From a virus, in IMG/VR virus record IMGVR_UViG_3300020455_001388, positions 1 through 47,431 of that record: a stretch of 47,431 nucleotides of DNA. One strand, written 5' to 3'. Under the pieces are notes generated by a model. That model made no database searches. It saw nothing but the letters and a program-made list of their open reading frames with translations, and was not told where the DNA came from. The translations under genes and the position numbers were made by a program. Below are positions 1,170-22,079 of the stretch, in pieces (within the stretch, counting starts at the first letter, position 1; each line of letters begins with the position of its first letter).

Positions 1170-2168
1170 TCACTTGTTTAAGCTTGGCACAACCTTAACT
1201 TTCCGATCGTAAGTATTAACCTGTCGCTCTGTTTTGTGCCCTGAGAACATTTGTTTTTCTCTAGTACTGCCTTCGTAATCACTAATCGACTTAGCTTTAA
1301 GATCGTGAAACGTGAAATCTAACGCCATATTGGTTTTTGCTCGCGCCAGTTCCCGCGCATCCATCCAGCCTTGATCGAACCCACGGCCCGTGTAATTTTT
1401 CCCGTTCGCCTGGCAAATTACCCAGCGGCTTATAACATTGCCCGTTCTCAATGATTTTGCTATCTCGATTGCTTTCTTGAGTCGAGGGGTCCATTCCTTA
1501 ATTTGTTTAACGTTGGTTTTACCTTGCTGAATAAAAATACCTTCATCACGTATCTGATCCCATGTCATAGCAAGAACATCACCTTTACGCGCAGCGCATA
1601 AGTAACTTATTTCCATTGCAGCTTGTACATGGGGTGGGGCGTTTTCAAATACTGCTTTGTATTCCCAGTCTTCAACATATCTGTCTCTGGCCGTTTCTTT
1701 GAACTGTTTAACCCCTTTGCATGGGTTCTGCTTAACTAAACCTCTTTCATAGGCCCATCGATAACAGCGAGACAGAAAAGCCTTTTCCCTGTTTGCTTGG
1801 GTTTTCGATTTTGCCCCGCGCTTATCCATGTAAGCACGAACGTGGCGAGGCTCTAATTTGTCGGGGTGCACTTTACCAAACACGGATAAAACTTTGCGAC
1901 TGTACTTTAAATAGTCAGCTTGGGTGGTTTCAGATAAATCGGAGAAGTCAGCGCTTTGGAAGAAATCGCCAACCAACCCAGAAAGGTTATCTTTTGATTC
2001 TAACGCTTGAATAGCATCTTCATGGGCCTTCAATACTTCCCATTGCTTGGCATCCAAAGAGCAAAGGCGAATAGCACCACCACCTTTTGGGTGGTACTCG
2101 TAAGCTGATTTACCCGGGTATACTCGTGGCGGCATCCATGCGTCTTTGCGGCTTTTCCTTTTTGTCAT
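1170..2168 (-). CDS. int: Phage integrase, tyrosine recombinase
   Basis: This recombinase integrates and excises the prophage at the neighbouring tRNA-Leu. The 332-residue protein has an N-terminal basic arm-binding region, a core-binding SAM-like domain (about residues 60-155) and a C-terminal catalytic domain. The catalytic residues visible are the Arg of AARKGDV, the His of HDLKAKS, the His of SGHKTER and the Tyr of VNTYDRK. The second box reads HxxK instead of the canonical HxxR, a variant common in this phage integrase subfamily. I chose the ATG at 2168 because it overlaps the upstream stop as ATGA; a start four codons earlier (2180) is possible. It is the last gene of the long leftward operon, as in lambda. 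Confidence 0.95.
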   Translation of the reverse strand: MTKRKSRKDAWMPPRVYPGKSAYEYHPKGGGAIRLCSLDAKQWEVLKAHEDAIQALESKDNLSGLVGDFFQSADFSDLSETTQADYLKYSRKVLSVFGKVHPDKLEPRHVRAYMDKRGAKSKTQANREKAFLSRCYRWAYERGLVKQNPCKGVKQFKETARDRYVEDWEYKAVFENAPPHVQAAMEISYLCAARKGDVLAMTWDQIRDEGIFIQQGKTNVKQIKEWTPRLKKAIEIAKSLRTGNVISRWVICQANGKNYTGRGFDQGWMDARELARAKTNMALDFTFHDLKAKSISDYEGSTREKQMFSGHKTERQVNTYDRKVKVVPSLNK

Positions 2169-2371
2169 GCTGCATTCCAATTAATCAAACTATCGGTTTC
2201 TTCTAGTTTCCCAATCATGGGGTGATGAACGTGATGCCAGCAAACTTTTATTTTGCCATCCATTCGTTCTACAAAGAATATACGATTTTTGGTTAATATC
2301 TCCTTTTGCTTACTTTCCTGTTTAGCACCAGTGAGCTCTTCAATCTCTTGATCTGTTAGAAAGTCTTTCAC
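2165..2371 (-). CDS. DUF4224-family protein next to integrase
   Basis: A 68-residue protein with an N-terminal FLTDQEIEELTGAKQ motif, typical of DUF4224, a family almost always found directly upstream of phage integrases. In this position it probably acts with the integrase, perhaps as a directionality or expression factor; that role is inferred from position. The start is GTG at 2371, preceded by an AAGGAG ribosome-binding site at a good distance. The stop overlaps the integrase ATG as ATGA, so translation of the two is coupled. It ends in Ala-Ala. Confidence 0.75.
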   Translation of the reverse strand: MKDFLTDQEIEELTGAKQESKQKEILTKNRIFFVERMDGKIKVCWHHVHHPMIGKLEETDSLINWNAA

Positions 2372-3068: not shown

Positions 3069-3748
3069 GACTCACCCCCCTTGCGTAGTTGCAGTTCACA
3101 ATTCACAATATGCGCCCACAAATGCGCAACACCGTCATTAAACGCTTGTATCGCATAATTAGTTGGGCAAAACTTCTGGGTTTTGTAACTGCTTAGTACA
3201 TGTGCAAGCGCCTCAATCTGCTGCTCTATGGTGAATTTGTTTAGTGCATCGACTGAAGACCCTTCTACAAAAGATTCATAAATATCGTCCGCCAGATGAC
3301 ACCTTGCATAAAGCTCACCGTCTTCTTGCATATCCAAAAGCGGCTCAATTCGCATTGTGAGTAATTGATGCTGAGATTCTAATTCCGCAACACGCTCATT
3401 AGCTTCATTTAGTTTTTGATAAACAGTTAAGCCTTCACTTCGCTGCATCGTTACTGTGAATGCGCCAAGCTCCTCGCTGTTAAACTCTGCAACTAAGTAG
3501 TTGGTTGCGCCAGAGCCTTTGAATGTCTCCACGAATGCTTCGCAAAACACATGAAAAATATTACCGCTGGCTTTTATGCTTAGTTCGCCATTTTCCATAG
3601 TTAGCTTATTCAGCATTGCCTTAGCTTTGGCATCGTCAACCAGTGCGTCTTGAAGTTCTTCACCACGCTCATTTGCCTTTTCTAGCTGTTCGCGCAGCTG
3701 TCCGATTTCTTCACGCTGCTGATTGATAATATCGTTTAAATTACTCAC
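3065..3748 (-). CDS. Coiled-coil phage protein, 227 residues
   Basis: Residues 5-45 form a strong heptad coiled coil rich in Glu, Gln and Leu, and a second one lies near residues 110-130 (LNEANERVAELESQHQLL). The central part contains a GSGATNYL segment. The C-terminal 50 residues are helical and end in RKGGES. The start is GTG at 3748, overlapping the upstream stop as GTGA. It resembles the general make-up of lambda Ea22-type early proteins, but I cannot name a family with confidence. Confidence 0.7.
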   Translation of the reverse strand: MSNLNDIINQQREEIGQLREQLEKANERGEELQDALVDDAKAKAMLNKLTMENGELSIKASGNIFHVFCEAFVETFKGSGATNYLVAEFNSEELGAFTVTMQRSEGLTVYQKLNEANERVAELESQHQLLTMRIEPLLDMQEDGELYARCHLADDIYESFVEGSSVDALNKFTIEQQIEALAHVLSSYKTQKFCPTNYAIQAFNDGVAHLWAHIVNCELQLRKGGES

Positions 3749-3936
3749 GCTGCTCTCTCCATCTGAGTTTCATCTTTAATTGACACAACCAGTGCGTGAG
3801 TGAATGCCGTGCTTCTATTTATTTCGGCTGCTATCTCAGCTGTTTTATAGTTGTGCTCAATGAAATTTTGTACGATCCCCACTAGCATTGCGCTGGCGTA
3901 GTGGGGTTTGCCGTTAACGAATATCTGGCGCCTCAT
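3745..3936 (-). CDS. Small hypothetical protein, 63 residues
   Basis: A short protein beginning MRRQIFVNGKPHYASAMLVG, with a helical middle section that could be a helix-turn-helix (NFIEHNYKTAEIAAEINRS), though this is weak. The ATG overlaps the stop of the exonuclease gene (ATGA) and its own stop overlaps the next GTG. It ends in Ala-Ala. Confidence 0.65.
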   Translation of the reverse strand: MRRQIFVNGKPHYASAMLVGIVQNFIEHNYKTAEIAAEINRSTAFTHALVVSIKDETQMERAA

Positions 3937-4520
3937 GCTGCTTCTATCTCATCACGCTGAATAACATCAGCCAACTTCTGATAAATAGCAGAAACATGCT
4001 TAGCCTGGTGAATGGCATCGGCTAGAGCGTTATGCTTTTCTCCCTCAAACGGCATATCTTTCTTAGGGTCGAAATTAATAAGCTTGCGGCCAAGTTCAAC
4101 AATGGTTCGTACATCCATATCACCAGAGTAAGACCAAGGCTTTTGAAGCTTTAGCTGTTTGTAAGCGTTGGCAATAATTACGTTGTCGAATGTGCAACCG
4201 TTGCCCCATACTCGAATATCAGCAAAAGAGCATTGGGCTTCACTGATAACTAATTCGCTAAATGCGCGTAAAGCTTCACTCAAACCAACGCTATCATTGT
4301 GATTAATCTCAGCGCGCGCTTCATCGCTTTGGCCTAGCCACCATGCAACCGTGCTTGCATCAATCTCACCATACTTCGCCGCGCTTTCTAGCCAAATGCG
4401 CTTATAAAACTGCTCGCCAAATTCGCCAGTAAGCGGATTGAAGAATACAGCGCCAATTGACACGATGGCTGCGTTTGAGCCTTTGCCCATTGTTTCTAGG
4501 TCTAACATAATATTGTTCAT
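3933..4520 (-). CDS. DEDDh 3'-5' exonuclease
   Basis: This protein of 195 residues belongs to the RNase T/DnaQ-like exonucleases found in phages, close to the Rv2179c-type and exonuclease VIII-associated group. Motif ExoI is DLET (D7, E9), ExoII is the segment VWGNGCTFDN with its Asp, and ExoIII is HNALADAIHQA with the catalytic His and Asp. It degrades single strands or RNA 3' to 5' in the cytoplasm using two metal ions. I use the ATG at 4520, which overlaps the upstream stop as GCAGCATGA; the longer open frame to 4553 adds 11 unconserved residues. It ends in Ala-Ala. Confidence 0.85.
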   Translation of the reverse strand: MNNIMLDLETMGKGSNAAIVSIGAVFFNPLTGEFGEQFYKRIWLESAAKYGEIDASTVAWWLGQSDEARAEINHNDSVGLSEALRAFSELVISEAQCSFADIRVWGNGCTFDNVIIANAYKQLKLQKPWSYSGDMDVRTIVELGRKLINFDPKKDMPFEGEKHNALADAIHQAKHVSAIYQKLADVIQRDEIEAA

Positions 4521-5949: not shown

Positions 5950-6522
5950 TTAGCACGCTAGGTGCATTGCTCGATATTGTTTAAACAACGGCGCGAACGG
6001 AATATCATCATCAAAGTCAAAATCCGGCTCGCTCATCGGGGCCTTTTGTTGGGCATTGCCATGGTTGCCAGCGTTGGCCTGTCTGGTTCCGCGTTGGCTA
6101 GCATTCCCGTTAGGTCTATTCCCAGCCTGTTGGCCTCCTTGATTGCTTCCTCGCTGAAAGCCGTTTTCATTCTGCGCACCACCGGAGCGCCCACCAAGCA
6201 TTTGCATTTGATCAACAATAATTTCAGTTGTGTAACGGTCTTGCCCCTGCTGGTCCTGCCATTTGCGAGTTTGCAGCTTGCCCTCTACGTAAATCTGCGA
6301 ACCCTTTTTCAAATACTCGCCAGCAACTTCAGCTAAGCGCTTATACATGGTGATGCGGTGCCATTCGGTACGTTCTTGCACTTGGCCCTGTTGATCTTTC
6401 CAGCTTTCGCTGGTGGCCAGTGACAGGTTCGCCACCGCATTGCCGTTTGGCATGTAGCGAACTTCGGGGTCGTTCCCCAAGTGCCCAACTAGAATTACTT
6501 TATTTACGCCTTTTGTTGCCAT
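5950..6522 (-). CDS. ssb: Single-stranded DNA-binding protein with C-terminal extension
   Basis: The 190-residue protein has a standard OB fold in residues 1-110 (starting [19 protein letters not shown]) and a flexible Gln/Gly/Asn-rich linker. The acidic tip DFDDDIPF, normally the very end of SSB and the docking site for partner proteins, is followed by 14 more residues ([14 protein letters not shown]). This buries the terminal Phe. The extra codons bring the stop onto the rdgC ribosome-binding site. I chose the ATG at 6522, since homology starts there and it overlaps the upstream TAA (TAATG); the longer open frame to 6642 is not SSB-like. Confidence 0.93.
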
Positions 6523-6680
6523 TACATTGAAGCCTGTTGATTGATTGAATTGTTCACGCCCTTCGCGCGAGTGATAACCCAACCGCCTGGTACTGCTTGC
6601 ACCATTAAGTTGAACCATGGAAATTGATTGAATGCGTTGCACCAGCGGCTAGCGTTGGCGAATGTTTTGAATACGATCAT
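6522..6680 (-). CDS. Small hypothetical protein, 52 residues
   Basis: A short gene fitted exactly between two neighbours: its ATG at 6680 overlaps the upstream stop as GCAGCATGA, and its TAA overlaps the ssb ATG as TAATG. The product starts [20 protein letters not shown] and contains three Trp and several aromatic residues. No family is recognised. The double overlap is the main evidence that it is real. Confidence 0.65.
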
Positions 6681-7048
6681 GCTGCTTCCCTTCTGTATTT
6701 TCTAAGACGAACGACCATTGGCAGTTGTTGGCGCAGCTCTCTCGCAAAAGGAAGCATTACCACTACTGGTGACTTAGCTTGCCATCTGGCTAAGCGTGAA
6801 AGCTCTTTCATCATTGAGCGGTAGTATTCTTGTGGAGAAGCGCAAAACATTTTTACTTCTTCGCCCGTTCGCAAATTTCTATAAAGCGAACCAGTTCCAT
6901 CACACTCTTCACACTCTCGGTCATGCCCACATTAACAGCATTCATTTTCACCAGAGCCATAGCAGTTCCAGCATTCTTCTTCTTCGTGAGTTTCTAAGAA
7001 CGCCGCCTGGGCATTTCCTGCCCACGTGTCATAGCTAGGTAAGATCAT
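6677..7048 (-). pseudogene. Zinc-finger phage protein interrupted by an in-frame TAA
   Basis: Reading from the ATG at 7048, which overlaps the upstream stop in the usual GCAGCATGA junction, gives 38 residues, then TAA at 6932-6934, then 84 more residues in the same frame ending RREAA. The two halves together carry a DnaJ-like zinc knuckle: CWNCYGSG before the stop and CEECDGTGS after it, with ENECC and CGHDREC flanking the stop. The stop could come from one change in a TAT or TAC codon. Downstream there is a TTG (6874) that could restart translation. It may be a broken gene, a readthrough gene, or two polypeptides. Confidence 0.7.
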
Positions 7049-7536
7049 GCTGCTACTCCCAAATCAGTGATTTCTAGCATTGAAAGGTCATAGCCAGCGC
7101 TAAATCGAGAACCGTCCGAATTGTTTAAAGCAACTACCCAAGTTCCGCATAGCTCTCTTGGTGAGCTGGCAATGGTAAATTCGTTTCCAATATGCAATTT
7201 ACCCTCAACGCAACACCTCTTAATTTGCACTTTCATCCCAATGCGAGGGGTTGTGGTTACACGGCCAGAGAACTTCCTCATTTCGGTTTCGGTATGTTTA
7301 TGTTCTGGCTGAACAGTAACGCCAACCTCGGCGGCCATATCAAAGAAAAAGTCAACGCGGCTCGCATCGATGTAGAGAATTTCTGCGGTTTCCAAGCCAT
7401 TCATTAACGTTACATCTTGCGAACGTTTACCATCAGCTGTTTCAATTTTCGTGAAACGTTTGCCGCCTTCCACGCCTGAATCTTTCCAAATCAGGTAGAA
7501 CATGCCTGGTTGTTTTGTTGATGCTCTGATTATCAT
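7045..7536 (-). CDS. Hypothetical phage protein, 163 residues
   Basis: No recognised family. The N-terminus (MIIRASTKQPGMFYLIWKDS) and the C-terminus look like small beta-rich domains; a Cys pair (CC) occurs near residue 109. It overlaps the zinc-finger gene by ATGA and ends GVAA. Its upstream gap holds two hairpins, which suggests a separate control point in the operon. Confidence 0.65.
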   Translation of the reverse strand: MIIRASTKQPGMFYLIWKDSGVEGGKRFTKIETADGKRSQDVTLMNGLETAEILYIDASRVDFFFDMAAEVGVTVQPEHKHTETEMRKFSGRVTTTPRIGMKVQIKRCCVEGKLHIGNEFTIASSPRELCGTWVVALNNSDGSRFSAGYDLSMLEITDLGVAA

Positions 7537-7558
7537 GGGTTATTATCCTCATGCTGTT

Positions 7559-7619
7559 GGCTGCACTGTCTTCCAAAACGATTGCAGCCAGTGGGTTGCG
7601 CCCCTTTAGTTAGGGGCGT
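7559..7619 (-). promoter_or_regulatory. Two intergenic hairpins
   Basis: The gap between the genes at 7045-7536 and 7627-8361 holds GGCTGCA/TGCAGCC (7 pairs, long loop) and next to it ACGCCCC/GGGGCGC with loop TAACTAAA. Neither is followed by a clear T run in the transcribed direction, so RNA processing or attenuation is more likely than strong termination. Confidence 0.4.
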
Positions 7620-7626
7620 GGTTTAA

Positions 7627-8361
7627 TTAGTCGTAGTACCATTCAGTATTGTAATCGCCTGCGTATTCGCCCTTGTCTAGTGCAAACTCAGCCTCGGTCA
7701 CGTAAGCGTTGTAGAGAATTTTTTCAAATTGGTAGAAGGGGCCAAGAGCGATTGACTTGCGGCAATCCTCTCCGTCAACCCTCAATGAGAATATTTTTAA
7801 CTTGCCAGTTTTTGCATCTTCGTTAAGGCCAATTCTGAAATTGCATTCATATTCAGATTTATCAGATTCCTTATCGATTCCAATCCAGTAGCTACTGTAG
7901 GACTTATCTATATGAAGGCTTATTTCGCCCTCTGCCTTATCTTCTCTAGCGCCATCAACTATTTTTTCCACAAGCCAACTCAAATTAACCACATCGGGAA
8001 CTTCCGACATAATCTCTTTTAATTCACCATCCAAAACTTCAACTAACTTGTTGTCGTAGAAGTTTTGAGCAGCTAATCGAAGACGCTTAGTCACAAAGTC
8101 GTGGTACTTGGGGATATCTCCCAAGGACTCAGCGGTAGGCATGATTGCCTCAGTCATTTTTTCCTTCATTAGCTTTGATAAATCACCCCAGCTACTGAAA
8201 ACATCATCAGCGACACGTTTAATAAACTCATCTACTTTTACCTCTATAGCTTTTTCAACTGCGCCCCTTTTAATTTTTTCATTCAGTATATTGTTGAACA
8301 TATCTGACACTGAAACAGCTTCTGCGTCCTGTTTTGGTGAAAATGTAGCTTCATCTTTCAT
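7627..8361 (-). CDS. Hypothetical phage protein, 244 residues
   Basis: An acidic, mainly helical protein with no recognised family. Residues 20-130 are rich in Lys, Glu and Val and predicted helical; the C-terminal third contains aromatic beta segments (SYSSYWIGIDKES) and ends EWYYD. AGGAAAAG precedes the ATG. It stands alone between two hairpin-bearing gaps in the leftward operon. It is one of the few genes here that does not overlap a neighbour. Confidence 0.7.
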   Translation of the reverse strand: MKDEATFSPKQDAEAVSVSDMFNNILNEKIKRGAVEKAIEVKVDEFIKRVADDVFSSWGDLSKLMKEKMTEAIMPTAESLGDIPKYHDFVTKRLRLAAQNFYDNKLVEVLDGELKEIMSEVPDVVNLSWLVEKIVDGAREDKAEGEISLHIDKSYSSYWIGIDKESDKSEYECNFRIGLNEDAKTGKLKIFSLRVDGEDCRKSIALGPFYQFEKILYNAYVTEAEFALDKGEYAGDYNTEWYYD

Positions 8362-8492: not shown

Positions 8493-8590
8493 GACTTACG
8501 CTTACCGGTAGCCCAGCCTATTACCTTGCCGGTAATAAATGCGAAGGCGAACATTAGGGTTATTACAAGTGCAATAATGAGATAAATCAT
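8489..8590 (-). CDS. Tiny membrane protein, 33 residues
   Basis: The ATG at 8590 overlaps the upstream stop in the GCAGCATGA junction. The product is one hydrophobic span (MIYLIIALVITLMFAFAFIT) followed by a short basic tail GKRKS, giving an N-out or N-in single-pass topology with a cytoplasmic basic end. No family is recognised. It could be a small regulator of membrane function or superinfection, but nothing in the sequence decides this. Confidence 0.6.
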   Translation of the reverse strand: MIYLIIALVITLMFAFAFITGKVIGWATGKRKS

Positions 8591-8877
8591 GCTGCATCAT
8601 CCGTGGCGAGAGAGGGCATAAGCTGGCGCAATGTGAAACCGTTAGGTGCACGATTAAAGCTTTCCAGCGCTTGGATAATGGCTGGTTTAATTTCGCCTGG
8701 CAGAGTGGAAGTAAGCTGGTTGTCATCACGAAGGTAGATAACCTTGGCACGCTGGGTATTTTGCCAGCTGATGGTGTGGCCGCTCATAACAAGCGTAAGC
8801 AGCGAGTTAACAACTTCTATTTTTTGGAACATCAGCAAGTCGTTAAACGTTGTTTTATCAATACTCTTGTGGGACAT
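8587..8877 (-). CDS. Hypothetical first gene of the leftward operon, 96 residues
   Basis: A soluble protein with no recognised family, beginning MSHKSIDKTTFNDLLMFQKI and ending ATDDAA. It is the first gene after the PL-like promoter, with GGAGATAAAAACC before the ATG. This is the place where lambda-type phages keep early regulators such as N or Kil, so a role in early control is possible but not shown. Confidence 0.7.
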   Translation of the reverse strand: MSHKSIDKTTFNDLLMFQKIEVVNSLLTLVMSGHTISWQNTQRAKVIYLRDDNQLTSTLPGEIKPAIIQALESFNRAPNGFTLRQLMPSLATDDAA

Positions 8878-8906: not shown

Positions 8907-8957
8907 AAGTTAGGTTAACTTAACTTAAATGTCAAATAAAAGTTAGGGTAACTAAAC
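8907..8957 (-). promoter_or_regulatory. PL-like early promoter with two operators
   Basis: On the minus strand TTGACA (8930-8935) and TAACTT (8907-8912) are 17 bases apart. Two operators of the form GTTAGGNNAACTNAAC lie at 8909-8924, covering the -10 region, and 8942-8957, just upstream of the -35 box, 33 bases apart. Each has TTAG and CTAA or a near match as half-sites. The same motif occurs at PR, so repressor and Cro probably bind here and silence the leftward operon. Confidence 0.7.
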
Positions 8958-8972
8958 AGTTTTTTATGGGCA

Positions 8973-9006
8973 CAAAAAAACCGCCTTATTGGCGGTCATT
9001 TTTTAT
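8973..9006 (-). terminator. Intrinsic terminator of the lysogeny operon
   Basis: ACCGCC-AATAA-GGCGGT followed by a T run is seen on the minus strand (stem 8980-8996), which ends transcription of the genes at 9058-11609 before it enters PL. The plus strand also has a T-rich tail, so it may work in both directions. Confidence 0.8.
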
Positions 9007-9057: not shown

Positions 9058-10053
9058 CTAACTTTTAACTGCTATCACTTTAGCCGATGTGTATCTGCTG
9101 TGAAGCTGCTTAACTAAAATATCAAGCTCCATCGCTTTTTTATTCCAGCTGTCTTCTTTTATTATTTCAGATTGTTCATCACCTATAACGCCTAGCGGTA
9201 TTTTAGCTTTGAACTCATAACCATCATCAATGCTTCTCAAAGTCACCTTTAAGTCATCCCTGTCTGTGAAGTCAGCATAAAGCAACAAGTATTTTCCACT
9301 AATTACCTTTTCTACAGCTTTCTCTCTTGCTTTTTCAGTTAGCGTTGATACTTGATGGCCTGTCACGTTCAATTGATTTTCTGGCTTCCTTTCTTCTCTG
9401 CTCCCGCCAACTTCAAGCGTGTCATTCTCTTTGAGGTTTGTAGCAAAATTGGTTTGCGTGCTATGCACACTGTCAATTAAATGAGAAAGTATAGGGCTGT
9501 AATCAGCAGCTTTGGCAATCAATTCCATTTTTTCTTTCTCTAGCTTTGATAGTTCAATTGTTTTTTCAAGGTCAGAATCAAGTTCTTTATCTTTTGATTT
9601 TTTGGTAAGCCATGCTTTCCAGCCTACAGTGCTTGCCACAAGAACCCCGAATACAATAGCAATTAATACCAACTGTTCTGGTGTCATCTTACCTGTCGCA
9701 TCTTGAATTATTTTGAGTAGCTTATCACCTAACAGCGTTTCGAACCAAGATGAACCTTTATCCACTTTAACTACTAGTTCTAGTTTTTCTCTATCTTTTT
9801 TAGTCAGCTTCCTTGTGCTTTCTTCACCGTAAACCGCTAAGCAATACGCCTTATTTACCTCTTTTTGTAGCTCTAAAAGAGACGGCATTATTCGCGTTGG
9901 GATTGTTCCATTAAATTGTTCCCCTTTAATCCTAATGACAAATCGTGGCCAATTAACCAATTCTATTGATTGAGTTTCATCAATTTTTTCACCTTCAACT
10001 ATTTCCCGAAGAAGTGCAAAAGCATCGTTTTCTGACTCTATTTTTGTAATCAT
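9058..10053 (-). CDS. Membrane-anchored unknown protein of the lysogeny operon
   Basis: The 331-residue product has a soluble N-terminal region, one membrane span near residues 142-165 (LVLIAIVFGVLVASTVGWKA), then a Lys/Glu-rich helical linker and a C-terminal beta-rich domain. No family is recognised. I chose the ATG at 10053, which has an AAGGAAG site; the open frame extends further but into a repressor remnant. It is the last gene of the repressor transcript, so it should be expressed in the lysogen. Such genes are often exclusion or defence factors; that is an inference. Confidence 0.7.
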   Translation of the reverse strand: MITKIESENDAFALLREIVEGEKIDETQSIELVNWPRFVIRIKGEQFNGTIPTRIMPSLLELQKEVNKAYCLAVYGEESTRKLTKKDREKLELVVKVDKGSSWFETLLGDKLLKIIQDATGKMTPEQLVLIAIVFGVLVASTVGWKAWLTKKSKDKELDSDLEKTIELSKLEKEKMELIAKAADYSPILSHLIDSVHSTQTNFATNLKENDTLEVGGSREERKPENQLNVTGHQVSTLTEKAREKAVEKVISGKYLLLYADFTDRDDLKVTLRSIDDGYEFKAKIPLGVIGDEQSEIIKEDSWNKKAMELDILVKQLHSRYTSAKVIAVKS

Positions 10054-10075
10054 ATATATCTTCCTTAATCTTAAA

Positions 10076-10201
10076 TTAATCCCAAATACTAGATTGCCGG
10101 AATACACGGCCAATTATGATTAGTTCTTGGATTTGTTCTTGAAGGTAAAGTTCGTCAGGGTGTTCAGAAATGAGGACACGACAACAGCACTGCTTTTCCA
10201 T
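10076..10201 (-). pseudogene. Remnant of a second phage repressor C-terminus
   Basis: An ATG-to-stop frame of 41 residues contains EHPDELY, then IIGRVF, then SSIW before the stop, matching the last 30 residues of the repressor at 10884-11609 at 18 of 30 positions. The match continues through the stop codon into the leader and ribosome-binding site of the following gene. It is thus the leftover 3' end of a diverged repressor allele. The upstream part (MEKQCCCRVL) has no repressor similarity. Confidence 0.75.
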
Positions 10202-10242
10202 CAATATTAACTGAGTTCAACTAGAATTTAGTTTTTTGGCGT

Positions 10243-10860
10243 TCATTTTGTTCTATTCACAGCTTCTAACCAGTGATTTTCACTAATGATTTTTATGTTA
10301 GAAGTCTGCATGTCTCTGTAACTCATAGCCTTTTCGATCTTACGCCCGAAAGACTCATGAGCCCAAGCGTCAGTAACATAGCTCCCAATCACCAGATAAT
10401 TGATACTCTTAGTAACTGACTTTCCAATAGCGCCCCCTAGTTCCTCTACCAAACTTGTGCATTTCGCGCGGGTTCCGTAGTTGAATGTTCCTGTAAAAAG
10501 AAAAATGGAACCGCGTATTTTCACTTCTGGAGGGGGGGAACACAGAGGTAGGTTGGTAGGTTTTGCCAATTCGCCTAAAGCGACTTCATCACCGTTGAGT
10601 TTACTAAGTAATTGAAATAATTCTTCTGCCTCCTCGTTATCAACAATGCCGTCGTTGAGTATTTCAATTACCTTGGTTTCAATATTAATAATTATCGGGT
10701 TGTTGGAGTCTCTATTTTGTAATAACCACTGAAGAAGAAACTCTACTTCTTCTTGAACTAGCTTTCCATCCGCTAACAGCCCTTTAGACAACCCAATAAG
10801 TGTGTCCATCTTACGATCTTCGACAGATCTTGAGTTGTATATATTAGTTTGTTTGTTCAT
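10243..10860 (-). CDS. BRCT-domain protein of the lysogeny operon
   Basis: The 205-residue protein has an acidic helical N-terminal half (about 1-95) and a C-terminal BRCT domain (about 120-205) with the hallmarks FTGTFNYGTRAKCTSLVEEL, GGAIGKSVTKSINYLVIG and a closing Trp in ENHWLEAV. BRCT domains bind DNA ends or phospho-peptides and occur in NAD-dependent ligase; here it is a stand-alone moron. The ATG at 10860 has AGAAGGAA upstream. It lies directly downstream of the repressor on the same strand and should be made in the lysogen. DNA-linked defence or exclusion is possible but unproven. Confidence 0.8.
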   Translation of the reverse strand: MNKQTNIYNSRSVEDRKMDTLIGLSKGLLADGKLVQEEVEFLLQWLLQNRDSNNPIIINIETKVIEILNDGIVDNEEAEELFQLLSKLNGDEVALGELAKPTNLPLCSPPPEVKIRGSIFLFTGTFNYGTRAKCTSLVEELGGAIGKSVTKSINYLVIGSYVTDAWAHESFGRKIEKAMSYRDMQTSNIKIISENHWLEAVNRTK

Positions 10861-10883
10861 AAGATTTCCTTCTATTAGTTTTC

Positions 10884-11609
10884 CTAATTCCAAATACTAG
10901 AGTGCCAAAAAACTCTACCTATAATCACCATATCTTGTAGTTCTTTATCTTGATATAGTTCGTCAGGATGCTCGGCACTGTTAATACTATTGATCCTTAA
11001 GCCGCCCCCTGGAAGACGATAAAGGCGCTTAACTCTTAAAAGGCCGGAGTGATTTATTGCGTACACCTTTCCATCTACTATTCGCTTATCAAGGGTATTG
11101 ACGCCAACAACATCCCCATCGAACAATCTGGGTTCCATGCTATTACCAGAAACCTTCACGCAAGCCGCAGCGCCAGCTTCAACGCCGCACCTTCGCAAGG
11201 TTGACTTTGAAAAGCGCAGCTTTGGCCCTTGTATTTCTAACGTTAATTCACCACCAATCCCAGCTGCTAATTCTACTTCCATGAAAAAAGGAACCTCTAC
11301 TTCATCTTCATGCAACGGTGTTGCACTATCCCAAGCGTCAATACGCCCATAATACTCAGCGTTATTTTCTACTGGCGCGCGCTGGGAGCTTTCTGGTGAA
11401 AGCCTATATTCGCCTTTTAAAAGCCACTCGGGTTCACATTTGAGTACTTTAGACAATTCCATTATGAATCTAGTTGGGTTGTCTTTTCCGCTAAACCAAT
11501 TGCTTACAGAGGCTTTGCTCGCACCAGTTTTTTCGGCAATGTCTTTTTGTTTGAGATTAAGTTCTCTAGCTCTTCTTATTATTCGGTCACTTATGCTGGC
11601 AAAACTCAT
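10884..11609 (-). CDS. CI-type repressor with S24 self-cleavage domain
   Basis: This 241-residue protein maintains lysogeny by binding the operators at PL and PR. The N-terminal helix-turn-helix (about residues 14-36, KQKDIAEKTGASKASVSNW) is followed by a LexA-like peptidase domain. The Ala-Gly cleavage site is in VELAAGIGGE, the catalytic Ser in SGNSMEP and the Lys in LRVKRLYR, so RecA-stimulated self-cleavage during SOS is expected. I use the ATG at 11609 with AAGG upstream; a TTG two codons earlier is unlikely. It is divergent from the Cro-like gene across the operator region. Confidence 0.93.
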   Translation of the reverse strand: MSFASISDRIIRRARELNLKQKDIAEKTGASKASVSNWFSGKDNPTRFIMELSKVLKCEPEWLLKGEYRLSPESSQRAPVENNAEYYGRIDAWDSATPLHEDEVEVPFFMEVELAAGIGGELTLEIQGPKLRFSKSTLRRCGVEAGAAACVKVSGNSMEPRLFDGDVVGVNTLDKRIVDGKVYAINHSGLLRVKRLYRLPGGGLRINSINSAEHPDELYQDKELQDMVIIGRVFWHSSIWN

Positions 11610-11667: not shown

Positions 11668-11725
11668 TTGACTTATTTAAGTTAGGTAAACTAAACTAAG
11701 TCTCAAATGGTTAGGTAAAGTAAAT
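11668..11725 (+). promoter_or_regulatory. PR promoter and operators
   Basis: TTGACT (11668-11673) and TAAACT (11692-11697) are 18 bases apart. Operators GTTAGGTAAACTAAAC (11681-11696) and GTTAGGTAAAGTAAAT (11710-11725) overlap the -10 region and run up to the Cro-like ATG, so repressor would block both transcription and possibly initiation. A weak half-site near 11623-11642 could be a third operator for the repressor's own promoter, which I cannot place exactly. Confidence 0.7.
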
Positions 11726-11726
11726 A

Positions 11727-11912
11727 ATGGTCAAGAAAGAAGTAATTGAATATTTCGGTAGCTGTACCGCCATCGCTGAAAAACTCGGAGTTTCAAAAAG
11801 CTCTGTTTCTCAATGGGGCGAAATAATACCCCCGCTTCGCGCTTATCAGATTGAAAGGCTCACTGGCGGCCAGCTTAAAGCAGAAGAGCCTGAACTTAAA
11901 AAAGCGGGTTAA
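11727..11912 (+). CDS. Cro-like regulator
   Basis: A 61-residue protein made of a single Cro/YdaS-type helix-turn-helix (residues 8-45, with CTAIAEKLGVSKSSVSQWGE and IPPLRAYQIERLTGG). It is the first gene of the rightward operon, divergent from the repressor, and its ATG abuts an operator. Cro proteins shut off repressor synthesis and drive the lytic choice. The ribosome-binding site is poor (AGGTAAAG), so it may be made at a low level. Confidence 0.85.
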   Translation: MVKKEVIEYFGSCTAIAEKLGVSKSSVSQWGEIIPPLRAYQIERLTGGQLKAEEPELKKAG

Positions 11913-11997: not shown

Positions 11998-12468
11998 ATG
12001 AAAACTAAAAAATGTTCAATTGAGCTAAAAAATCTACATAAGTTAGATGATGCGATGAGAGAGTTCAGTCGCAGTGCTCGATTAGATTTAGAGGCACCAA
12101 GAATAGGGACCACGGCAAACGTTCTTAGGAATAAGCTTAACCCTGATCAAGAATTTCATAAGTTAAGTTTGCTAGAGACAGTTAACTTATCGGCGAACAC
12201 CGGTGATATGTCGTTATTCCACGCCGCCCTTAGCATGCTTGGCTACGACTGCCACAAAGTTAATGACGGCCCATCTGCAGAGCAGCTCATTTCACAGGTC
12301 CTTCACTCAGCAAGCGCTTCAGGCAAAGTTACTGCTTTATTCGATCAGGCAAATGAAGATCAGCACATTGACGAAGATGAGCGCAACTCACTTATAAAAG
12401 CTACCGAAGAAGCCATCCAAAAACTTCAGTCACTTCGCTCATCCCTATTTAAGAAGGAATTAGCATGA
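11998..12468 (+). CDS. Phage regulatory protein of the CII/CP76 family
   Basis: The 156-residue protein has the LRNKLNPDQEFHKLSLLE segment typical of the phage regulatory CII family (Phage_CP76), whose members control the lysis-lysogeny choice by DNA binding. Helical N-terminal and C-terminal parts flank it (KATEEAIQKLQSLRSSLFK near the end). AAGG precedes the ATG. It follows the Cro-like gene in the position of cII, and its stop overlaps the next ATG. Confidence 0.75.
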   Translation: MKTKKCSIELKNLHKLDDAMREFSRSARLDLEAPRIGTTANVLRNKLNPDQEFHKLSLLETVNLSANTGDMSLFHAALSMLGYDCHKVNDGPSAEQLISQVLHSASASGKVTALFDQANEDQHIDEDERNSLIKATEEAIQKLQSLRSSLFKKELA

Positions 12469-12902
12469 CTAACTCACGCCTCAACTTATCCATCAACGCT
12501 GACAAAGTAAGCCAGCTACTGGCCGTGGTTTCTGCAGCTGCCGCTAAATCACCGTTTACCGAACAGTTTTTTCAGCGCTACCAATTTCTTATTGCAACTG
12601 GTGACTTATTGGTTAATGCAACTGGTGACTTATTGGTTAATGCCACTGGTGGAAATTCTAGCCACCGTGCGGCCGTCACCGGTGAAATCGGGGTTTGTCT
12701 TCAACCAACTGATGCGCTCCTTAGTCTTTGCACCGCATTTCTGGCAGGGGATGGGGATTTCCGTATTTTCGATCATGAATATTCCTTTTCTCAATCAGTT
12801 GAAACCTCTGTGGAGAAGTTTGATAGGTATGACTCAGTTATTAACGAGAGTAATGCCCGGCGAGTCCATACGATTATCTTCAAAGATCCTGAACCTTCGT
12901 AA
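12465..12902 (+). CDS. Hypothetical protein with internal 8-residue duplication
   Basis: A 145-residue protein without a recognised family. Residues 44-60 contain ATGDLLVN twice followed by ATGG, caused by a perfect 24-base tandem repeat. The start overlaps the upstream stop (GCATGA). The C-terminal part is acidic. The repeat keeps the frame, which fits a translated gene in which slippage changes protein length. Confidence 0.6.
   Translation: MTNSRLNLSINADKVSQLLAVVSAAAAKSPFTEQFFQRYQFLIATGDLLVNATGDLLVNATGGNSSHRAAVTGEIGVCLQPTDALLSLCTAFLAGDGDFRIFDHEYSFSQSVETSVEKFDRYDSVINESNARRVHTIIFKDPEPS
12594..12641 (+). repeat. 24-base perfect tandem repeat, two copies
   Basis: The unit starting GCAACTGGTGACTTATTG occurs at 12594-12617 and again at 12618-12641, followed by a partial third copy (GCCACTGGTG). 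It encodes ATGDLLVN in frame. Confidence 0.9.
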
Positions 12903-15378: not shown

Positions 15379-16084
15379 AATGATGTTTTCAGCTATGCAG
15401 GTTAAAGCTGGAAGCCCAACTACTAAAATGGTTTTAATAAAGCTTGCCGACAACGCGAACGACAAGGGAGAGTGCTGGCCAAGCTATGACAATATTGCTG
15501 AAGTTTGTGAAATTTCTCGCCGTAGCGCTATCAATCATATCGATAAACTTGTCAAGAAAGGCTTGGTGCGCAAGGAAGAAAGGAAGGGGCCAAAAGGTAA
15601 TTCGAGTAACGTATATTACTTGACGCTTGGTGGTGAAAAATCTGCACCCCTACCTAGTGAAAACAATTCACCAGATGGTGAAAAATCTGCACCACCCCCT
15701 AGTGAAAAATCTGCACCACCCCCTAGTGAAAAATCTGCACCCGAATCTGTCAGTATAGAACCAGTCATTACTGAATCTGTCATTGAAACAATAAATCGCG
15801 AAAAGATTATTTCCCTTGAAAGCCTAAATGCTTTCGTTAGCTACAGAAAAAAAATCAAAAAGCCAATGACTACTCATGCGGTTGAGTTGCTTGTTGCAAA
15901 ACTTGGTGGTCTTCGTGTTGACGGACACTCACCGCAAGAGCTAATCAACGAAGCCATCATGAACGGCTGGCAATCGGTTTACCCAAAAACCAACCCTAAG
16001 CCGAATGGCACATTCCAAAGCCCCCAAGAACGCATACGCGAAGAAAACATTCGCGTCATGTCTAAATGGGCAAACAAGGAGTAA
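15368..16084 (+). CDS. Replication initiator, lambda O-like
   Basis: The 238-residue protein has an N-terminal winged helix (about residues 15-90, with WPSYDNIAEVCEISRRSAIN and a wing ending NVYYL), typical of phage replication proteins that bind origin iterons. Residues 95-125 are a low-complexity Pro/Ser/Lys linker made of EKSAPPPS repeats, and the C-terminal part (140-238) would contact the helicase loader. The repeats in the linker DNA are the likely iterons, so gene and origin overlap as in lambda O. It is followed four bases later by the P-like gene. Confidence 0.85.
   Translation: MSIKMMFSAMQVKAGSPTTKMVLIKLADNANDKGECWPSYDNIAEVCEISRRSAINHIDKLVKKGLVRKEERKGPKGNSSNVYYLTLGGEKSAPLPSENNSPDGEKSAPPPSEKSAPPPSEKSAPESVSIEPVITESVIETINREKIISLESLNAFVSYRKKIKKPMTTHAVELLVAKLGGLRVDGHSPQELINEAIMNGWQSVYPKTNPKPNGTFQSPQERIREENIRVMSKWANKE
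15632..15741 (+). repeat. Iteron array, probable replication origin
   Basis: The 17-base unit RGTGAAAAATCTGCACC occurs at 15632-15648, 15677-15693, 15701-15717 and 15725-15741, with a degenerate copy at 15656-15672. Spacings are 24, 21, 24 and 24 bases. An AT-rich stretch follows from about 15790. The layout matches lambda ori, which has four iterons inside O followed by an AT-rich region. Confidence 0.75.
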
Positions 16085-20692: not shown

Positions 20693-20859
20693 TCACGCCC
20701 TCAGATACATGGTGCTACGTTCACTTTTCGGATGGCAGCGTTTTAGGCTGGCCTTCATCGATGTTTGGCAACCCAATACACGAAACCACTATCAATCATA
20801 TGATTGAACAAAGCGATCGAATCCTTGTGCGCGAGGAACTTATGGGTGATGAGAAATGA
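20689..20859 (+). CDS. Small hypothetical protein, 56 residues
   Basis: The ATG overlaps the upstream TGA and the TGA overlaps the ATG of the second integrase. The product MITPSDTWCYVHFSDGSVLG continues to an acidic tail (LVREELMGDEK). No family is recognised. The double overlap supports it. Confidence 0.6.
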   Translation: MITPSDTWCYVHFSDGSVLGWPSSMFGNPIHETTINHMIEQSDRILVREELMGDEK

Positions 20860-22079
20860 AATACCTCGCCCTTAACCTTAACGATACAGCAATCAAAAAA
20901 CACGCATCTGATGCTGTGGTGGGTGAGCTACGCGATGTAAGAAACCCAATATGTTTACGCTTCCACAAAAGCCGTGAACGGGCAACGTGGTGCTACTATC
21001 GCAATGAAGGTAATTCAAAAAACCGTACTCGTTTAGGTTACTGGCCCACACTAAAAACCAAAGATGTGCTTGCTATGTTGCCCGGTGTTATTGAAAAGCT
21101 TCATCATGGTAAAGAGGTACAAAGCAGTAAATTTAAAACCGTGGGTGAAATGCTCAATTGGTATTCATCACGCACAAGCAAAGAGAACATAAAAAGTCAG
21201 AGCCGCCGCAAAGGTGTGTTATCAGCTATTGATAAGCACTTATTACCCCGACTTGAGCTTATAAATATCAGCGAAGTCAGCAAGGCCATCATCGATGATA
21301 AGCTAGTTTTACCCCTGCAGAATGCCAACCTAAAGCCCTCAACCATTCGCCAATACTTCGCCATATTAAAGAGGGTGTTTGCCAGTGCGAGAGAGTTGGA
21401 GCTAATTTCGGTAAACCCCATGGCGGGTATGAAGTTTCGTGATCACGTGCAACGCAGAATTGAGCCCAAGCAAGGCAGATTGCTGGTAGATGATGCACCG
21501 GCATTAATACAGCAAATTAATATAGCCCCAGCCACTACTAGAATGCTTTTATTGTTCATGTTGCTGTTTGGTACTCGTATCGGTGAAACCCGCCAACTAA
21601 GATGGCGCCACATCGATTTGAACAGCGGCCAGTTAATCATACCTGAAACCATAACCAAGACTGCAGCGGTTCATATACTGCCAATCACTTACCAGGCTAA
21701 ACGGTTATTGCTGGAATATAAGCAGCAGTGCACAGGTGAATACTTGTTTGGCGGTAAAGAACCCATGAGTGCCAGCGCAGCGGATAAGGCAGTAAGGGAA
21801 GCATCAAAGCGTAAGTTCTCAGCGCATGACATAAGAAAGCTTGCTCGAAGTGTATGGGCAACGGTAGGCATTGATTACTGGGTAGCAGAGCGATTACTTA
21901 ACCATAAGCAAAAGGGGCTTGATTTGGTTTACATCAAAGCTGACTCGATGGACGTTAAACGCAAGGCATTAGAGCAATATCATGAGTGGTTATTTCGTGA
22001 TGTGAAACCCGTCCTTATCCCGTCCGTGGAGATTTCAGGTAAAGACGAAAACAATAATGTATTCAATAAGGTGGCGTAA
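20856..22079 (+). CDS. Second tyrosine recombinase
   Basis: The 407-residue protein has an N-terminal arm-binding domain with FHKSRERATWCYYR, a SAM-like core-binding domain (about 105-200) and a full catalytic domain: Arg in GTRIGETRQLRW, HxxR in SAHDIRKLAR, His in LLNHKQKG and Tyr in VYIKAD. All catalytic residues are present, unlike the HxxK variant in the first integrase. It is translationally coupled to the nin-like operon and has no attachment repeats around it. It would be made during lytic growth, so it may resolve phage genomes or serve another recombination, or be a captured integrase. Confidence 0.88.
   Translation: MKYLALNLNDTAIKKHASDAVVGELRDVRNPICLRFHKSRERATWCYYRNEGNSKNRTRLGYWPTLKTKDVLAMLPGVIEKLHHGKEVQSSKFKTVGEMLNWYSSRTSKENIKSQSRRKGVLSAIDKHLLPRLELINISEVSKAIIDDKLVLPLQNANLKPSTIRQYFAILKRVFASARELELISVNPMAGMKFRDHVQRRIEPKQGRLLVDDAPALIQQINIAPATTRMLLLFMLLFGTRIGETRQLRWRHIDLNSGQLIIPETITKTAAVHILPITYQAKRLLLEYKQQCTGEYLFGGKEPMSASAADKAVREASKRKFSAHDIRKLARSVWATVGIDYWVAERLLNHKQKGLDLVYIKADSMDVKRKALEQYHEWLFRDVKPVLIPSVEISGKDENNNVFNKVA

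Follow-up and report, generated by a model that had tools for sequence, protein, structure and literature searches.

The locus

The window, as we shall call the whole stretch of DNA that was analysed, comprises 47,431 nucleotides of a viral record (IMG/VR IMGVR_UViG_3300020455_001388, positions 1 to 47,431). A phrog_1 integrase and lambda-like early genes are present in it, as in the record of a temperate phage. We call it a marine, temperate phage and, since Alteromonas phage P24 matches 33% of the stretch 26881-47014 at 89.7% DNA identity, probably one of Alteromonas type. The gene order given in a preliminary description of this DNA is confirmed: on the minus strand, between 11609 and 9058, there follow one another a cI repressor gene, a gene for a BRCT-domain protein, the diverged tail of another cI and a gene for a membrane-anchored protein (Table 1). 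The terminator that had been placed behind both accessory genes, at 8973-9006, is indeed found there, at 8997-8979. Both genes therefore lie downstream of cI, on its strand and ahead of a terminator and oL. The layout of the corresponding region in lambda is cI-rexA-rexB-terminator-oL, and accessory genes on a repressor transcript often exclude other phages. A DNA search with the whole operon gave no match among phage records.

Table 1. Features of the lysogeny region of the window
Feature	Position	Strand	Description
cI repressor	10884..11609	-	241 aa, HTH + Peptidase_S24; left edge of the variable slot at its 3' end
BRCT gene	10243..10860	-	205 aa, helical N-terminal domain and a single BRCT domain, phrog_3989
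41-nt donor scrap	10168..10208	-	39/41 identical to L020 6733-6773, in the first gene behind the BRCT gene of L020
Orphan cI tail (older cI 3' end)	10076..10165	-	30 codons including stop
Membrane-anchored protein gene	9058..10053	-	331 aa, one predicted TM segment, phrog_6191
Intrinsic terminator	8979..8997	-	Right edge of the variable slot
oL-like operator repeats	8910..8955	.	Between the terminator and the small gene 8587..8877
oR-like operator repeats	11682..11723	.	Between cI and cro
P22 Cro-like gene	11727..11912	+	Start of the sequence swap relative to L024
Conserved small gene right of oL	8587..8877	-	Similar ORFs in L020, L022-L024, L026, L028 and L030

An orphan cI tail between the two genes

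The fragment between the accessory genes is what it had been taken for, a diverged repressor tail. Of its 30 residues, 18 are identical to cI residues 212-241, with a BLOSUM score of 108 against a maximum of 45 in 2000 shuffles, and at the DNA level its score exceeds all of 1000 shuffles. When the window was searched with a profile of the tail, only cI itself and this fragment matched. The preliminary description went further and had the similarity run up to the ribosome-binding sites of both accessory genes. That part does not hold. The similarity ends at the stop codon: the 23 nt beyond are identical at 10 of 23 positions, and 601 of 1000 shuffles of the stretches 3' of the two stop codons score as high.

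Relatives of the locus and the joints between units

A repressor search of viral contigs for relatives gave 66 loci. L011, L013, L019 and L136 represent a single contig that matches the window at 100% in this region. In L024 (contig 3300023216_002967), cI is followed, after 21 nt, by the same membrane gene (96% aa identity) and, further downstream, by another orphan cI tail and a lipoprotein gene. The same lipoprotein gene stands directly behind cI in L022 and L023, and it is to the cI tail of these two loci that the orphan tail of L024 is nearest (77%). In L020, cI is followed by the same BRCT gene (80% aa identity) and then by three further genes, for a 131-aa protein without a family match, an HTH protein and a SecB-like protein; the order of these three suggests a toxin-antitoxin-chaperone-like set.

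The 90 nt of the window's orphan tail share 80 positions (89%) with the cI tail of L024, 76 with that of L020 and 62 with that of the window's own cI. The match to L024 continues into the leader between the tail and the membrane gene, which is one 2-nt indel apart from the leader between cI and the membrane gene in L024. In the protein sequence, the FWHSSIW end is kept in the intact cI tails compared alongside (those of the window, L024 and L020) and altered in the orphan tail by W-to-R and H-to-Q changes, which fits a remnant in decay.

Over 14050-11900 and 8665-7565, identity between the window and L024 is mostly 98-100%, and it returns to about 100% inside the small gene to the right of oL. 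In between, it is about 60-89% through cI and 90-100% in the membrane gene, and the orphan tail plus membrane gene of the window align to the cI tail plus membrane gene of L024 as one 94% block. L020 is tracked by the window across cI, the BRCT gene and about 35 nt past the BRCT stop codon; there follow 41 nt whose counterpart in L020 lies about 324 nt further on (shuffles reach at most 24/41 identities), and then the old tail. Since this scrap lies within the first L020 gene behind the BRCT gene, the incoming unit would have come from a cI-BRCT-toxin-like donor and would have ended inside that gene.

The replacement or insertion history that had been proposed, in which a repressor + BRCT unit was set ahead of an older repressor + membrane-protein unit, is thus strongly supported by sequence comparison, with the older state seen in L024, a donor-like state in L020 and the scrap at the joint. 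Comparison of repressor-adjacent genes in related phages had been suggested as a check on that history; it brought out the older (recipient-like), the donor-like and the product arrangements alike, and the joint can be read to the base.

By DNA alignment, L024 is L022 with an insert 119 nt ahead of the cI end, flanked on both sides by L022 sequence. The joint in the window is 90 nt before the cI end. Because the insert in L024 has another joint and other cargo than that in the window, we regard the two as distinct stacking events that appear to have been independent. Because the BRCT gene occupies the slot without the membrane gene in L020, and the membrane gene without the BRCT gene in L024, the two genes of the window are probably separate cargo that met by chance, and not parts of one system.

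How frequent are such scars? In a self-search with the last 60 residues of 143 repressors (169 loci were supplied), orphan tails appeared in three rows that stand for two distinct contigs (L019/L136 and L024). With two contigs among 143 loci, stacking scars are rare but specific, and therefore no general habit of such phages. An N-terminal cI query at 140 loci returned 43 rows, almost all directly upstream, on the opposite strand and at the cro position; nearly all of these matches appear to be divergent Cro-type HTH proteins. No papers on orphan cI tails were found among openly licensed PMC papers, which is weak evidence of absence.

The variable slot behind cI

In this phage group, the whole interval from the cI tail to the terminator differs between loci that are nearest by cI. 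Other cargo of the slot includes a YhaV toxin in L021 (the same N-terminus occurs in L026), the HTH and SecB-like genes of L020, a Zn-ribbon protein in L037, and lipoprotein-like and small membrane proteins, classed by eye. A RelA/SpoT gene in L085 is a weak candidate for slot cargo, since it lies on the opposite strand.

Breakpoints were counted for 13 loci, which form 72 possible pairs with different cargo, 52 of them with both flanks aligned. Homology on the left ended between -160 and +11 nt of the cI stop codon in 52 of 52 pairs, and homology on the right resumed at most 41 nt from the terminator in 35 of the 42 pairs for which the terminator of the first-named locus was located; both are hand counts of pairs that are not independent. 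Two comparisons illustrate the left end. Between L020 and L021, most of cI shows 90-100% identity and the tail 65%. The cI genes of L020 and L023, about 92% identical up to a point some 245 nt from the end, are about 65% identical beyond it.

The last 31 residues of cI track the cargo rather than the cI body. This was seen in 13 of the 19 loci L019-L037, with 6 same-cargo pairs and with cargo classes assigned manually from ORFs; the near-duplicates L023, L028, L031 and L033 were left out, as were L034 and L035, which have no readable cargo. The tails were 12.4 points more alike where cargo was shared (p = 0.008), and the permutation test on tail minus body gave p = 0.004, against 0.6 points (p = 0.37) for the cI body in the same 13 loci. 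With the two orphan tails added, p was 0.0006. There is a counter-example: L020 and L024, which carry the BRCT gene and the membrane gene respectively, have tails that are 94% identical.

The two accessory proteins

Both genes had been described as unknown. This is right in that both families are uncharacterised, but each gene has kin, so that the genes are unnamed rather than isolated. The profile searches that had been suggested for both proteins gave a similarly divided answer: neither has a full-length match to a defence protein in PADLOC-DB 2023, yet both fit PHROG families.

The BRCT protein matches PF00533 with 25.4 bits (cut-off 21.3) and, with residues 7-202, positions 100-293 of the 296 in the phrog_3989 profile (E 2.7e-55); the first ~100 positions of that profile have no counterpart in it. 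In PADLOC-DB 2023, it gave only a partial match to PDC-S48 (E 4.7e-4, profile 280-401 of 411). Its predicted model (pLDDT 80.8) consists of four helices, a linker and one BRCT domain. The closest domains in both fold and sequence are those of NAD-dependent DNA ligase and RFC1 (LigA BRCT Z 10.1 and RFC1 Z 9.9, over 76-78 residues; human RFC1 profile E 4e-8). RFC1 contacts a 5' phosphate via Thr-Gly, Arg and Lys, according to the accessible text of PMC9359705. The T-G-R residues are kept in the window family, with T123, G124 and R131 invariant across 40 aligned sequences. In contrast to RFC1 and ligase, one phosphate-site lysine is absent from the aligned position; a family-specific W-x-H-x3-G-x-K stretch follows, and neither a ligase nor a clamp-loader domain is attached. 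We favour the view that the protein would bind phosphorylated DNA ends or nicks by means of an RFC1/LigA-type BRCT domain.

Genes of phrog_3989 stand behind cI in K139 and in Pseudomonas phage Marin, and after another gene in PG1. In viral contigs, many of them near-duplicates, a repressor lies at most 300 nt upstream at 26 of 80 BRCT loci, and by hand count 22 more have one 1.1-1.4 kb upstream, with room for one gene between; of 39 upstream proteins with Pfam results (67 were picked), 8 matched S24 and 11 HTH_3. Matches to phrog_3989 occur in 324 of 369 bacterial genomes, mostly in BRCT proteins of ligase size. Fifteen are strong, and at these no repressor was detected within 1.5 kb, which argues against a strict rule that the gene is always behind cI. 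The accessible part of the paper on phage 919TP does not mention the BRCT gene.

The membrane protein has a single hydrophobic segment at about residues 127-147 and matches phrog_6191 over nearly the full profile (positions 8-332 of 338, E 6.7e-65). Nothing in PADLOC-DB 2023 matched it, and searches of solved structures gave weak matches only. Its model, built from 6 sequences, is poor (pLDDT 47); only the C-terminal ~80 residues reach moderate confidence, and these look like OB-type barrels (Z about 8), a similarity that is common. Members of phrog_6191 lie directly behind cI in mEp332, phi458 and PhiR12_2, behind an unnamed gene that matches cI in Moraxella phage Mcat17, and, on an E. coli plasmid, behind a repressor of the LexA family. 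Among ten loci tested, the plasmid included, eight had an upstream repressor match; in L223 two genes lie between. Proteus and Vibrio records with phrog_6191 showed no repressor within 3 kb. The mEp332 form is present in 18 of 5426 E. coli genomes. A set of 369 genomes of one class gave two weak matches to the family (E 2.9e-4 and 4.1e-4, with stops) and a set of 12 genomes none; with genome matches so scarce, the context of phrog_6191 is read from phage, viral-contig and plasmid records. We favour a membrane-tethered sensor or effector that would act on superinfecting phage.

Comparison with known systems

The lambda rexAB slot and the window agree in having genes behind the repressor, on its strand, with a terminator before oL. 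What sets the window apart from rexAB, and from RexABpp of P. putida prophage P1, is that two independent cargo genes are separated by an orphan cI tail. As described in the accessible text of PMC12894663, two other genes separate RexABpp from the CI-like repressor upstream of it.

Phage 434 has a single gene downstream of cI, hex, which is on the PRM transcript of this lambdoid lysogeny operon. The accessible text of PMC3564112 reports that Hex (158 aa) excludes P22, stabilises its prophage and blocks RecA-mediated cleavage of the repressor. No relation of Hex, as described there, to either window gene was seen.

In K139, with the lysogenic operon cI-orf2-glo-int, the product of orf2, the gene next to cI, belongs to the same BRCT family and shares about 33% identity with the window protein. 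Orf2 is longer, however, and the genes after it are glo, annotated with a role in phage exclusion, and int; there is no cI tail. The proteins of mEp332, phi458, PhiR12 and Mcat17 belong to the family of the window's membrane protein and are likewise behind cI or, in Mcat17, behind a gene that matches cI; in mEp332 the gene is followed by a terminator and oL, as in the window. These coliphage and Mcat17 proteins differ from that of the window in sequence (about 18-27% identity) and are not accompanied by a cI tail.

How the two genes may have come together

We propose the following history. An Alteromonas-type temperate phage would have, between the cI stop codon and the terminator, a cargo slot of lambda rex type. 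Cargo would be exchanged by recombination with its left end in or near the cI end and its right end at the terminator or oL, and incoming cargo would usually bring a cI end with it. On two independent occasions, the old cI tail would have been the joining point for a new unit placed ahead of the old one; the repressor would have been restored by the arriving cI end, with the old tail left as a scar. For the window, the incoming cI-BRCT unit, with a piece of a toxin-like gene, would have had an L020-like donor, while the older unit would have been an L024-like cI-membrane gene. Both genes would be transcribed with cI in the lysogen and would act independently, in exclusion or in prophage stability. 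To this history of slot exchange and stacking, lysogen expression and function included, we give a probability of roughly 0.7. Its gene order, scar, donor scrap, breakpoints and tail-cargo linkage can be read directly from the loci compared.

The same end product could be reached by another route. If unequal recombination between two phages had first produced a tandem of full cI-cargo units and a later deletion had removed most of the second cI, no insertion into a cI tail would be needed; and the window does show at least one internal deletion, of about 324 nt, where the BRCT spacer meets the 41-nt scrap. A tandem intermediate should have two cI genes, yet no second copy of the middle part of cI was found at any of the 140 loci searched, and the joint in L024 is clean, with L022 sequence on either side of the insert. 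We therefore consider duplication followed by loss unlikely. Nor do we see much room for site-specific integration in which the insert rebuilds the 3' end of the target gene, as islands do in tRNA genes. The incoming cI end does restore the reading frame in both cases, but the tail is interrupted at a different point in each, the joints have no shared site and neither insert has a recombinase gene, so that this explanation is largely refuted and was rejected.

The link between tail and cargo might instead be functional, with the cargo protein acting on the C-terminal end of its own repressor. Cargo is tracked more closely by the tail than by the body of cI, and Hex works on the repressors of 434 and P22, not on that of lambda (accessible text of PMC3564112). 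Simple hitch-hiking is enough to account for the linkage, because breakpoints fall in cI; moreover, L020 and the window have the same BRCT cargo with different tails (74%), L020 and L024 nearly the same tail with different cargo, and the cargo (toxins, lipoproteins) is too diverse for a single interaction. A functional link seems improbable to us. A still slimmer chance attaches to the BRCT and membrane genes forming one two-gene exclusion system like RexA-RexB. They are adjacent, on one strand and before a common terminator, and rexAB-type pairs occur behind cI in lambda and P. putida P1 (accessible text of PMC12894663). We rejected this reading nonetheless, since each gene is found alone in the slot of another phage and the donor scrap speaks for a chance meeting; nor is a RexA or RexB family among the listed matches of either protein at E up to 1 (Pfam, PHROGs, NCBIfam, PADLOC; these libraries may lack RexA/RexB models).

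Returning to slot exchange with stacking, one can ask whether the 3' end of cI has a more active part in it, both as landing place and as adaptor. Units of a cI tail and a gene would then move between phages, restore the repressor in frame and stack on older cargo, leaving dated tail scars. This is a tentative idea, on which we would sooner bet against than for. If it is true, cargo traffic would have a share, next to repression, in shaping the C-terminus of the repressor.

Possible functions and significance

The preliminary description regarded this as the classic place for prophage defence or exclusion genes. In position, between cI on one side and the terminator and oL on the other, the slot corresponds to that of rex and hex, and genes of toxin-antitoxin type occupy it in relatives. 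From the position in the slot and the types of neighbouring cargo, we think that both window genes would be exclusion or stability genes expressed in the lysogen and acting independently. That at least one of them is an exclusion gene is about an even bet. The slot itself is of the known rex/hex type; as far as limited literature searches show, what is new are the cI-tail scars and a tail that follows the cargo.

Genes of repressor operons are a rich source of phage-exclusion functions, and the route by which they arrived is seldom visible. An orphan cI tail, or a tail that disagrees with the body of its cI, provides a practical signature for cargo in lysogeny operons. For the phage discussed here, it would separate two neighbouring genes into independent functions, each of which can be tested alone.

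Integrases, repeats and a methyltransferase-like ORF in the window phage

The single phage genome of the window carries two tyrosine integrases, and the annotation of Alteromonas phage P24 likewise gives two.

Tyrosine integrase genes of the window phage
Feature	Position	Strand	Family
Tyrosine integrase	1170-2180	-	phrog_1
Tyrosine integrase	20856-22079	+	phrog_1

The replication O-like gene contains direct repeats at 15631-15741, with units of 24 and 45 nt, an arrangement like that of a lambda-type origin. Directly behind the CII-like gene, the gene at 12465-12902 has a 24-nt tandem repeat, in-frame and in 2.6 copies (12589-12651). Each end of the 673-aa ORF at 16842-18863 matches a different DNA methyltransferase family, and this ORF is perhaps a fusion.

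Repressor loci in other viral contigs

Many viral contigs (L156, L160-L167 and similar loci) have in common an ORF of ~150 aa in the interval between the repressor and BRCT genes, at about 3583-4035, where it overlaps the BRCT gene start; the layout in Pseudomonas phage PG1 is similar. In the donor-like phage L020, the prophage cargo behind cI and the BRCT gene is a toxin-antitoxin-chaperone-like trio (6487-7717), made up of a 131-aa protein without a match, an HTH protein and a SecB-like protein.

The repressor loci L021 and L026 agree in the C-terminal half and tail of cI and in their YhaV-type cargo but differ in the N-terminal domain of cI. Therefore, the DNA-binding half of cI is also exchanged.
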